Below are positions 38,945 to 41,805 of a DNA stretch of 64,000 bases, one piece after another. A program made the translations under genes and the position numbers. Under the pieces are notes generated by a model. The model did no database searches. It was given only the letters and a program-made list of their open reading frames with translations, and was not told the origin of the DNA. The DNA lies in the NCBI RefSeq assembly GCF_900456975.1, contig NZ_UGYM01000002.1, positions 3,224,001 to 3,288,000 of the forward strand, given 5' to 3'. The DNA is from Shewanella baltica. Lineage in GTDB: Bacteria > Pseudomonadota > Gammaproteobacteria > Enterobacterales > Shewanellaceae. The first letter of the stretch is position 1. Each line of letters begins with the position of its first letter.

Positions 38945-40738
38945 TTACACCGAGGGTGATGCGATATGACGCCGTAAATCAGTTGCCTGCTTGTCACATT
39001 TTAAGATGTCAGAATAGCGTACTACGGCATTGCGGCCATTGGCCTTAGCGGCATAAAGCGCCATGTCGGCTCGGTGAAATAATGGATCTAAACTCAGATC
39101 ATCAGCCATTAAACCGCTCACGCCAAAACTCGCCGTAATGACGAACTTATGTCCTGAATGTTGGGTATCAATGGCCTCGATACGGGCTCGGCACTGCTCC
39201 GCCACTTCCATGCCTTTCTCTTCATCGGCATAGGGTAATAAAATCGCAAACTCCTCACCGCCGATACGAGCAAAAACATCACCATTTCGGATATGGGATT
39301 TAAGGGAATCAACCACCTTTTTAAGCGCCCAATCGCCAGTTCCATGGCCAAAAGAATCGTTGATCCGTTTGAAGAAATCCAAATCAAATAAAATGACACA
39401 GAAATCCCCACCGCGGGCCGTGGCTTGCACAAAAAGGTTTTCCCCTAACTCTTGCCCTGCACCGCGATTCAAGATGCCTGTTAATGCATCCATTCTCGCC
39501 ATACGCATAAACTTGCGTTTCTGCATCTGGCCTACAGCTAACAAAATCCCGAGGAAGAACAGTCCGCCTACTAGAATAGTGACAAACATCAGCATATTGG
39601 TGTATTCGCGCTCTTTTACCGTTTGCTGAGCGACATACAGTTCACGTTCCTTATTCAATAAATTAATCTCACGTGACTGTTCATCAGCATTAAACTTTGC
39701 CGCCTGATACGCTAACGTTTTCATTTTCGCTTCATCGAACATCAGCTGATTGTAATACTGCTCTTTTTTCGAATATTCATAGGCTTGTTCAAACTGTTTA
39801 TTCTCAGCATTTAAGCCCGCTAACACTTTAAAGACAGTATGTTTTAACTCGGTATAACTAGGATCATTAGGTAATGACGTAACGAACTTGGCATGCTCGA
39901 CCACCTCAGCAGATTGCTTTAGTGCAAAATACGCTTCGGTTAACAAAGAATGGACACTATTAATTTCTAGTTGAAAATTAAAAGACTCATATCCCTTTAA
40001 TGCTTTCAAAAGTAAAGCAACTGCAGCAGAGTATTCTTGCAACCTTAACTTAGACTCACCCATCCCTTTCAATGCAATAAACGAAATCAATGGGAAGCCA
40101 TTAGACTCACAAAAATCGTGTGTGTACTGGAATTCATCAAACGCCTTAGTAAAGGCCTCTAGCTCTAATTGATAAACTGATAAATACAACTTTGCAGTAC
40201 AGATATCTTTTACATTATCTGCTGAAGCAAGCGATTCTGCCTTAGCCGCGTAGGTTCCCACCTCTTCTTTTATGCCCATTGCAGAGTACAAACTGGCTAA
40301 ACGTAGATATGCAGCACGTTTGATATCTATATTATCTATTCGATCTATTAGCCCTAGGCTTTTGCTCATTACAACAAAAGCGTCTTTAAAGTTCCGTAGG
40401 GCGATGTACGCAGTTGCCTCATAGCTATAGGCAGAAAATAAATAATCGCTATTTTGAACTAAATTTTCAGATTGAATTAAATTATCTAGGGCTTCTTGAT
40501 ATTGACCTGAATAAATAAATGAAGTCCCTTTAAATACCAATAAACGACCTTGCTGAAAACGCGTCATATGCTCGAAATCAGCTTCAAGTTCATGGAGCTT
40601 AGTGATTGCACTTTGCATATCGGTATGTTGTAGCTGCTCCAGATCAGCTAATACCTCATCAAAATTGATAGTTGCAGCCATTAAGGGCATACAAAATATG
40701 CCCGAACATAACCACAAAAAAGCGCGCAGGAGTTTCAA
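38945..40738 (-). CDS. TPR-containing membrane diguanylate cyclase
   Basis: A 597-residue protein with a Sec signal peptide (cleavage near LMAA, about 22), a periplasmic helical region of TPR-like repeats (about 30-340), a charged helix likely to be coiled coil (340-380), one membrane helix (about 382-405) and a cytoplasmic GGDEF domain whose ARIGGEEF signature is near residue 493. The RNGD inhibition site lies five residues before GGEEF, so the enzyme should make c-di-GMP and be product-regulated. The start is TTG at 40738, directly after the TAA of the precursor gene, with GGTGAG overlapping that stop. The signal peptide begins at this codon, so the start is well supported. It is third gene of the borosin operon, which links c-di-GMP output to that pathway, by context only. 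Confidence 0.9.
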   Translation of the reverse strand: MKLLRAFLWLCSGIFCMPLMAATINFDEVLADLEQLQHTDMQSAITKLHELEADFEHMTRFQQGRLLVFKGTSFIYSGQYQEALDNLIQSENLVQNSDYLFSAYSYEATAYIALRNFKDAFVVMSKSLGLIDRIDNIDIKRAAYLRLASLYSAMGIKEEVGTYAAKAESLASADNVKDICTAKLYLSVYQLELEAFTKAFDEFQYTHDFCESNGFPLISFIALKGMGESKLRLQEYSAAVALLLKALKGYESFNFQLEINSVHSLLTEAYFALKQSAEVVEHAKFVTSLPNDPSYTELKHTVFKVLAGLNAENKQFEQAYEYSKKEQYYNQLMFDEAKMKTLAYQAAKFNADEQSREINLLNKERELYVAQQTVKEREYTNMLMFVTILVGGLFFLGILLAVGQMQKRKFMRMARMDALTGILNRGAGQELGENLFVQATARGGDFCVILFDLDFFKRINDSFGHGTGDWALKKVVDSLKSHIRNGDVFARIGGEEFAILLPYADEEKGMEVAEQCRARIEAIDTQHSGHKFVITASFGVSGLMADDLSLDPLFHRADMALYAAKANGRNAVVRYSDILKCDKQATDLRRHIASPSV

Positions 40739-40954
40739 TTACTCACCATTACCATGGGAAATAACTAAGTAGGCTTTACAATCATCATCCCCACTCAAGC
40801 TTTTCAGTTTTTCCATGTCTCCCGACATGACGGCTGCAATTTCTTCATCAGTTAACCCATGGGCACGCATTACGGCCTCAGGGTCCTGTTGATACGATTG
40901 CATCAACTGTGAATTTTGGCCTAACTGAGTAAAAAAATCGGATAATGCAGGCAT
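40739..40954 (-). CDS. sonA: borosin precursor peptide SonA
   Basis: A 71-residue RiPP precursor for the neighbouring alpha-N-methyltransferase. Residues 1-55 form the helical borosin-binding domain (DFFTQLGQ, DPEAVMRAHGLTDEEIAAVM). The C-terminal core is about 58-71, reading CKAYLVISHGNGE from residue 59. In the S. oneidensis homologue, as I recall, backbone methyl groups are placed at Leu63 and Ile65; the same residues occupy positions 63 and 65 here. It has ATG with AAGGA six nt upstream, the strongest initiation site in the operon, as expected for a substrate needed in excess. It lies between sonM (59-nt gap) and the diguanylate cyclase (no gap). Confidence 0.92.
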   Translation of the reverse strand: MPALSDFFTQLGQNSQLMQSYQQDPEAVMRAHGLTDEEIAAVMSGDMEKLKSLSGDDDCKAYLVISHGNGE

Positions 40955-40977
40955 ACTTTTTCCTTATTTTAATGATG

Positions 40978-41000
40978 ACTTCCGAATTCAACTCAGAAGT
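40978..41000 (-). other. hairpin between sonM and sonA
   Basis: Imperfect arms ACTTCCGA / TCAGAAGT (one mismatch) with a seven-nt loop in the 59-nt spacer, about 24 nt before the sonA ATG. There is no T-run after it on the minus strand. It may protect or separate the sonA part of the mRNA. Confidence 0.4.
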
Positions 41001-41013
41001 ACGACTCTCGCAA

Positions 41014-41805
41014 TTAGCCTAAATCTTCAGGCCTAATACCTAATTTGGTTAAAATAGCATAGTTGTATTCGAGTTTTTTTGCTTGCGGGATCAGTAACGT
41101 ACTGATGGGAGACAAGTTTGCCTCGGGCAGCTTACTCAACGGCAAATACTCAATTCTAGGAGCTTGAATCGGTAAATTAGCAGCCTCGTAGATCACCACT
41201 TGATGATCCAGTGGATACCATTGATGCAGTTGTTCAACCAAAATCTGCAGCCTATCACTCGTAGTATTGAACTGAGTTAAGGTATGTTCGCCAGCAATAG
41301 CAATTTGCCATAACAACAAATGAGTTGTCGGATCGGGCACATGATTAAAGAACATAAACTGGCTGGCTTCAAAACTTTGGTGTCCTGAATTACCTGGGTC
41401 TATACCTAAATCTGCCCATAAACACGCCTCGGCCGATATCCCAGGCTCCATCTTTGCAGCAAATCCTTCAGCCCTCGCCTGCTTAATCGCTAAGTGGGAC
41501 ACGCAAGCAAACACACCGGGGTGACCATAAAGCGCACAAACTGTTTTTTTACCGGCTCTCACAGCGCCCAAAATTGCACTCACCATTTGCTCATAGGTCT
41601 CACGGCGATTTTTCACTTCGCCATCTTGAGCATAAAACGGCTGCAAATTGATGACATTAGGATTAATTTTCTGGATCCAACGCTGCGAAAAACCATCTGG
41701 CAGGAGTGAAAACACCACATCGGCGTGCTCAATATAACTGCGACTCATCACACTGATTTGTCCGGCCAGCTGTAAACCCGTGCCTACGCAAACTAAAGAA
41801 CCCAA
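41014..41805 (-). CDS. sonM: borosin peptide-backbone alpha-N-methyltransferase SonM
   Basis: A 263-residue SAM-dependent enzyme of the tetrapyrrole-methylase fold that methylates backbone amides of its precursor SonA (a split borosin, unlike fungal enzymes fused to their substrate). Landmarks: VGTGLQLAGQIS at the N-terminus, FYAQDGEVKNRRETY (about 57-71) with Tyr58, Arg67 and Tyr71 in the positions of borosin active-site residues, the SAM-site YGHPGVF, and PGISAEACLWADLGIDPG. The known homologue forms a dimer with two precursors bound. The start is TTG at 41805; the frame upstream reaches a stop within seven codons and offers no ATG. It is first gene of sonM-sonA-diguanylate cyclase. A biosynthetic-porphyrin role is unlikely given the adjacent precursor. 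Confidence 0.93.
   Translation of the reverse strand: MGSLVCVGTGLQLAGQISVMSRSYIEHADVVFSLLPDGFSQRWIQKINPNVINLQPFYAQDGEVKNRRETYEQMVSAILGAVRAGKKTVCALYGHPGVFACVSHLAIKQARAEGFAAKMEPGISAEACLWADLGIDPGNSGHQSFEASQFMFFNHVPDPTTHLLLWQIAIAGEHTLTQFNTTSDRLQILVEQLHQWYPLDHQVVIYEAANLPIQAPRIEYLPLSKLPEANLSPISTLLIPQAKKLEYNYAILTKLGIRPEDLG

Follow-up and report, generated by a model that had tools for sequence, protein, structure and literature searches.

What does a backbone-methylated peptide do when the gene of its precursor abuts that of a membrane-bound signalling protein? The question is raised by a 64,000-nucleotide stretch of the Shewanella baltica genome (NCBI RefSeq assembly GCF_900456975.1, contig NZ_UGYM01000002.1, positions 3,224,001 to 3,288,000; hereafter the window), the minus strand of which carries sonM, encoding a borosin alpha-N-methyltransferase, sonA, encoding its separate precursor, and, beginning with TTG on the base immediately after the sonA stop, the gene of a putative sensor in which a tetratricopeptide repeat (TPR) part precedes a GGDEF domain. 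Comparison of related loci suggests an answer: judged by their alleles, the SonA core and the TPR domain vary together as a single hypervariable block, on either side of which the sequence is conserved.

The trio was confirmed as a type IV split borosin pair plus a signal-peptide/TPR/membrane/GGDEF protein. All three genes were found where the initial annotation had placed them, and its naming of SonM and SonA was borne out by full-length matches to the S. oneidensis proteins 7ltc_A (E 1.1e-161, residues 1-263) and 7ltc_B (E 6.7e-32, residues 1-71), respectively. Methyltransferase and precursor are encoded separately, and the precursor combines a borosin-binding leader with a core containing methylatable Leu63 and Ile65, as in type IV split borosins. 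These two residues had been named in the annotation as known methylation sites; both are present, and the S. oneidensis study gives them as the methylated residues (PMC8429565). The same study names Y58, R67 and Y71 as catalytic residues, all of which are carried by the translated SonM of the window.

Matched types of SonA core and TPR domain

Alleles were compared in a near clade of 21 genomes (the window and loci L181-L200). The comparison was made on 18 of these, 10 of core type A and 8 of type B, leaving out L190 and L197, which have a broken cyclase frame, and L200, which has a third core type. Type A cores have the C-terminal motif ...YLVISHGNG[D/E] or a near variant of it, and type B cores ...[T/A]F[L/I/V]LVNHGNN, the label A being assigned by pattern and including three loci (L183, L191 and L199) with cores differing at some positions. 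The GGDEF frame of L195 is broken; this locus was kept with low GGDEF scores in the identity comparison, its GGDEF part was blanked in the tree analysis, and it was excluded from the GGDEF and helix counts of pN/pS (the ratio of nonsynonymous to synonymous polymorphism). Genomes sharing a core type had TPR identities of 0.59-0.99 and genomes of different type 0.45-0.54, two ranges that do not overlap (p 0.0001). No corresponding difference was observed for SonM (p 0.77), the neighbouring BamE (p 0.44), the GGDEF domain (p 0.23) or the SonA leader (p 0.86), the mean identity of the latter being 0.866 within and 0.872 between types. Covariation of a peptide with the ligand domain of its putative receptor, while the other parts do not co-vary, is a feature of pherotype systems, and was found here in the near clade. 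Individual pairs illustrate the pattern: the window and L182 share 91% identity in SonM and 99% in GGDEF, against 51% in TPR and 37% in the core, and L185, taken as S. oneidensis because its SonA is identical to 7ltc_B, shares 99% (SonM), 97% (GGDEF) and 51% (TPR) with L187.

The limits of the variable block were located in six A-B pairs, in which the DNA identity was 83-97% left of the block, 49-52% inside it and 70-93% right of it. Counted from the sonM start, the left breakpoint fell at nucleotides 966-1017 and the right one at 1902-2005, which by arithmetic correspond to approximately SonA residues 39-61 and sensor residues 289-315. Four of the six pairs have their right breakpoint at sensor residue 313-315, where the modelled superhelix ends. 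On the backbone tree the core type changes five times, and well-supported branches require at least four of these changes; on the TPR tree it changes once. Three near genomes (L191, L192 and L195) contain two sonA copies, of which the one next to the sensor agrees with the sensor type, while the core of the upstream copy (~830 after the sonM start) resembles that of the other type and its 3' end is frayed. DNA matches support the opposite-type assignment of the upstream copy in L191 and L195, with a less distinct result for L192. The extra copies are probably precursors left behind by allele replacement. In a separate locus, L084, a partial second SonM and a second SonA precede the sensor, a layout as expected if a new allele block had been inserted through homologous recombination.

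The polymorphism data distinguish the same two parts. For SonA residues 60-70 a pN/pS of 0.19 was obtained within types and 0.65 between them, and for the TPR domain 0.24 and 0.50, respectively; SonM, leader, signalling helix and GGDEF gave about equal values within and between types. Judged by these ratios, the SonA core is under purifying selection within types, and is therefore no free passenger within a type.

The comparison was extended to the genus using 103 rows (102 loci and the window), five of the 107 fetched genus loci (L099, L135, L190, L197 and L217) being left out owing to a broken frame or contig end. Among 114 pairs from outside the near clade, chosen for identities of at least 85% in SonM and 70% in GGDEF and not independent of each other, core identity tracked TPR (r 0.89) more than GGDEF (r 0.44). 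The core was 88% identical in the 37 pairs with TPR identity of at least 75%, and 36% identical in the 66 pairs with TPR identity below 65%, the SonM identity being 91-92% in both sets. In partial Mantel tests on the 103 loci, the TPR-core correlation was 0.56 (p 0.001) and the GGDEF-core correlation 0.04 (p 0.24). At 60% identity the loci fell into 33 TPR clusters, and most of the 25 listed clusters have their own core motif; one cluster has two motifs, ...MIISNPTE as well as ...FQIVTTPKP, and cores resembling type B reappear in other TPR clusters from distant species.

Linkage of SonM to a TPR protein across genomes

With a cut-off of E<=0.001, SonM was found in 112 of 129 Shewanella genomes, and in 96/394 genomes of the order, 12/369 of the class and 18/398 of the phylum, samples which overlap and the tails of which include weak matches. 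The regions around many of these matches were annotated with profiles built in this analysis. The 21 type-2 (paralogue) loci, 61 other loci of the order and 10 loci outside it were taken from longer match lists, the weakest outside-order matches (E above 1e-20) being left out; L234 was dropped for want of a SonM match, the short loci L027-L080 and L241-L264 stand outside the counts, and L001-L026, which overlap the G set, were excluded from the count of TPR proteins within 5 kb. Such a protein was present in 107/107 type-1 Shewanella loci, 20/21 type-2 loci, 59/61 other loci of the order and 4/10 outside it, where SonM identity was at least 46% in the four loci with a TPR protein and below 40% in the six without. 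Chance or purely local adjacency of SonM and TPR is ruled out by these counts, and the initial annotation, which had looked to conservation of the cyclase gene beside sonM and sonA, is strongly favoured on this point. In 5 of the 107 type-1 loci the TPR frame lacks GGDEF as a result of a broken frame or contig end. A SonA-like open reading frame (ORF) was detected in 107 type-1, 20 type-2, 48 other-order and 3 outside-order loci, and several loci without a SonA profile match hold a small ORF with a similar core. The gene order is not fixed, as SonA-TPR-GGDEF-SonM was found in eight loci (L175, L179, L232, L233, L236, L276, L289 and L295). Plasmids yielded 13 records with distant SonM relatives (<=42% identity), none from Shewanella.

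Two further arrangements were observed within the genus. Many Shewanella genomes carry a paralogous SonM of ~50% identity with its own TPR-GGDEF (L140-L160), and its precursors are longer, with an acidic tail and a conserved-looking core motif around CPDVVC..PAED. Tandem TPR-GGDEF (or TPR) genes, two or three in number, follow one sonA in L100-L102, L117, L126, L131 and L134.

SonM, SonA and the TPR sensor were jointly missing from all 17 SonM-less Shewanella genomes, a set that includes the only 52% complete G111. A SonA search gave no match in any of the 17, and a single TPR-domain query (residues 1-396) gave none in 15, the other two showing marginal matches (2.7e-5 and 3.6e-4) at ~20% identity. 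A TPR-domain profile was tested on five Shewanella genomes with SonM, all of which it matched at 3.7e-89 or better; in the SonM-less set its best match was 1.0e-19, and 10 genomes lay between 1.0e-19 and 3e-11, as would be given by other TPR proteins. Applied to genomes drawn at random from the order, with a cut-off of E<=1e-25, the profile matched at least 29 of 40 SonM-positive and at least 3 of 110 SonM-negative genomes, of which the negatives are the informative part, since the profile was built from SonM-linked proteins and favours positives. The 11 SonM-positive genomes without a match comprise nine with kinase-type partners, G284, with a TPR ORF without detected output, and G199, the SonM match of which (2.4e-5) is probably a false positive. 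The three SonM-negative genomes with a match are G466 and the fragmented assemblies G220 and G234, in the short loci of which neither SonA nor SonM is seen.

The output domain, by comparison, varies. The loci from L081 on contain 217 TPR ORFs: 177 with GGDEF, 16 with a histidine kinase, and 24, some of them broken or at contig ends, with neither of the two. A GG[DE]EF motif is found in 164 of the 177 GGDEF-type proteins. As the output may be GGDEF, histidine kinase or none detected, it is, by gene context, the TPR sensor and not the cyclase that is the constant partner of SonM. The cyclase was considered as the essential partner and ruled out on the same variation. The coupled c-di-GMP (cyclic di-GMP) synthase of the initial annotation is hence the commonest version of the module, and not a constant one. 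Histidine kinases stand beside SonM/SonA in L172, L238, L266, L267, L275, L279, L280, L282 and L283, and further in L291, L292 and L298-L301. In most of them the TPR domain is without the cysteine pair described below (the two cysteines were found in 2 and in 3 of the 16, respectively), and these TPR domains probably represent another TPR lineage recruited to the equivalent site. Output-less TPR proteins, often in tandem, were observed beside SonM/SonA in one genus (L229-L231, L286-L288, L290 and L304); they possess an N-terminal hydrophobic stretch and no transmembrane stretch past the TPR part.

Sensor architecture and features of the window

The sensor was modelled with AlphaFold at a mean pLDDT (predicted local distance difference test) of 93.8 and a pTM (predicted template modelling score) of 0.68. 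Pfam assigned GGDEF to residues 414-570 (E 3.1e-39) and returned TPR matches only below the cut-off. The modelled helices 26-312 match TPR superhelices in structure comparison, and the predicted fold is that of a Rap-like TPR superhelix; a single continuous helix, 316-415, carries the transmembrane stretch and leads into GGDEF. GGDEF structures were among the best 50 Foldseek matches of the whole model. With an intact GGEEF motif at 493 and an intact RNGD I-site, the protein is a predicted diguanylate cyclase. The signal peptide is putative, based on hydropathy and gene context, and an N-terminal hydrophobic stretch was found in 173/177 GGDEF-type relatives. In the TPR part, Cys180 is kept in 177/177 and Cys210 in 176/177 of these relatives, a pair whose conservation fits an oxidising compartment.

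Table 1. Features of the split borosin trio, in window coordinates.
Feature	Position	Strand	Basis
sonM, borosin alpha-N-methyltransferase, 263 aa	41014..41805	minus	TP_methylase (Pfam) E 5.2e-20; 7ltc_A match
sonA, split borosin precursor, 71 aa, borosin-binding leader and C-terminal core	40739..40954	minus	7ltc_B match
TPR sensor diguanylate cyclase (predicted), 597 aa	38945..40738	minus	ORF, Pfam, AlphaFold model
SonA leader, residues 1-52 (cut point chosen in this analysis)	40799..40954	minus	kept across near-clade core types
SonA core region, residues 53-71, type A, C-terminus AYLVISHGNGE	40742..40798	minus	
SonA Leu63	40768-40766	minus	
SonA Ile65	40762-40760	minus	
Putative signal peptide, sensor residues 1-25	40664..40738	minus	hydropathy
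Predicted extracytoplasmic TPR superhelix, residues 26-312, putative peptide receptor	39803..40663	minus	model
Signalling helix, residues 316-415, transmembrane stretch ~379-400	39494..39793	minus	hydropathy, model
GGDEF domain	39029..39499	minus	Pfam
GGEEF active site	39262-39248	minus	
RNGD I-site (RxxD)	39289-39278	minus	
Allelic specificity block, ~SonA residue 39 to end of TPR superhelix	39801..40839	minus	breakpoints, window vs L182

The neighbours of the trio match a Na+/H+ exchanger with a TrkA domain, and BamE. A promoter and terminator scan returned fewer sites than the mean of shuffled sequences. The leader of SonA (gene at 40954-40739) gave weak matches, below the cut-off, to the IniB N-terminal, Os1348 NHLP and LigA families.

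Peptide sensing, its alternatives and related systems

We consider it probable that the locus is a self-matched, pherotype-like module, with the methylated SonA core as ligand, the TPR domain as extracytoplasmic receptor and c-di-GMP as the usual output. SonM would methylate the backbone of the SonA core, as shown in S. oneidensis and expected here from the close similarity, whereupon a short methylated peptide would be released and reach the periplasm. This peptide may be bound by the superhelical TPR part of the adjacent membrane protein, as joint evolution and fold suggest, and the peptide-bound TPR domain may then act via the long transmembrane helix on GGDEF and alter c-di-GMP, as the architecture suggests. 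Core and TPR domain would constitute matched allelic types swapped jointly by recombination, with methyltransferase, leader, signalling helix and cyclase held in common; elsewhere in the order, the equivalent layout would drive a histidine kinase or end in an output-less TPR protein. The proposal of the initial annotation that a periplasmic TPR domain senses the methylated peptide finds good comparative support in conserved adjacency, joint presence and absence, and joint allele switching, short of proof.

The main rival is that the TPR domain senses another ligand or protein and diversifies for it, the adjacent upstream core being carried along. Several observations weigh on this side and against a matched ligand. 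The core physically adjoins the TPR part in most loci, and over the 114 genus pairs the leader also tracks TPR (r 0.71), with a partial Mantel correlation of 0.50 (p 0.001) over the 103 loci; since the leader varies with TPR genus-wide, it is not free of linkage at that depth. In a genus whose loci run SonA-SonM-TPR, an attempt to break the linkage did not separate core from TPR, as the intervening SonM itself tracked both. Furthermore, the type-2 paralogue keeps its conserved-looking core, so that not every member has diversified. Hitchhiking is nevertheless considered unlikely in view of the constraint on the core within types and its change with type, the joint loss of the trio from the SonM-less Shewanella genomes, and the persistence of the module elsewhere despite shuffled gene order.

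An antimicrobial or interference role for SonA, with the TPR protein as specific self-sensing or immunity partner and c-di-GMP mediating self-protection or a biofilm response, would likewise fit the polymorphic matched pairs and leftover precursors, and the often tandem output-less TPR proteins of one genus are in line with it. This role appears improbable given that most partners retain a signalling domain, as counted above, and that the flanks of the window do not suggest a bacteriocin cluster. The least likely of the alternatives, which we regard as very improbable, is that methylated, uncleaved SonA works inside the cell, for example on GGDEF, with no exported signal. The leader is a folded domain according to PMC8429565, and neither an exporter nor a protease for SonA, both listed as missing in the initial annotation, was identified, no systematic search having been made; the part that tracks the core is, against this, the predicted extracytoplasmic TPR domain and not GGDEF. 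Returning to the pherotype-like module, we lean, with somewhat less assurance, towards a general form of it, in which the split borosins of Shewanella and relatives would be private peptide pheromones with backbone-N-methylated cores, for which matched Rap-like TPR domains, extracytoplasmic and attached to diguanylate cyclases or histidine kinases, would serve as receptors; the many pherotypes of one genus would switch by replacement of the core-plus-receptor block.

The RRNPP receptors (Rap, NprR, PlcR) are cytoplasmic, bind unmethylated, imported peptides and have a DNA-binding or phosphatase output. With its N-terminal hydrophobic and transmembrane stretches and its GGDEF domain, the sensor does not have the features of a cytoplasmic receptor; its TPR part is predicted to be extracytoplasmic, the peptide would derive from backbone-N-methylated borosins, and the GGDEF output would lie across the membrane. 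In agr and ComQXPA, a modified peptide and the ligand part of a membrane receptor co-vary as matched allelic types. The family described here resembles these systems, as peptide and putative receptor ligand domain vary jointly in the near clade while other parts are conserved, and differs from their polytopic kinases and phosphorelays in its modification, its TPR receptor and, in most members, c-di-GMP. A 2023 paper reportedly describes a bacterial borosin peptide product, in which case the view of the initial annotation that the final product is not described may be outdated.

The closest known system, SonM-SonA of S. oneidensis MR-1 (PMC8429565; 7ltc), shares enzyme and precursor family, methylated positions and gene order with the window, and L185 likewise has a TPR-GGDEF gene and a type A core. 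That study treats SonM-SonA alone, and its main text is without the terms GGDEF, diguanylate, TPR or tetratricopeptide; as it notes, no type IV borosin pathway was tied to a final product in 2021 (PMC8429565). The literature searched contained no paper pairing borosin with diguanylate or tetratricopeptide and no statement of a peptide-receptor relation, which is not proof of absence, and the accessible part of a borosin review mentions no sensor (PMC11285071). The annotation had also taken the role of the cyclase to be undescribed, which stands in that no peptide-receptor statement was found, and needs amending in that a 2024 borosin cluster figure legend, the part of that paper available, already names a 'GGDEF-sequence-containing domain' (PMC11395268).

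Split borosins have been described chemically and structurally, with no function given in the passages of the borosin papers examined. The joint allele pattern points to a probable purpose of the peptide and to its reader protein, and offers natural swaps. If the proposal is true, backbone methylation would gain a plausible use, because membrane permeability is named among its effects in the abstract of PMC8429565 and no dedicated exporter was noticed, none having been systematically searched for. Borosin RiPPs (ribosomally synthesized and post-translationally modified peptides), TPR peptide receptors and c-di-GMP control would be brought together, and bacterial split borosins would gain a function. 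To our knowledge, no ribosomal peptide signal has so far been found to feed directly into c-di-GMP, and this one would be the first.

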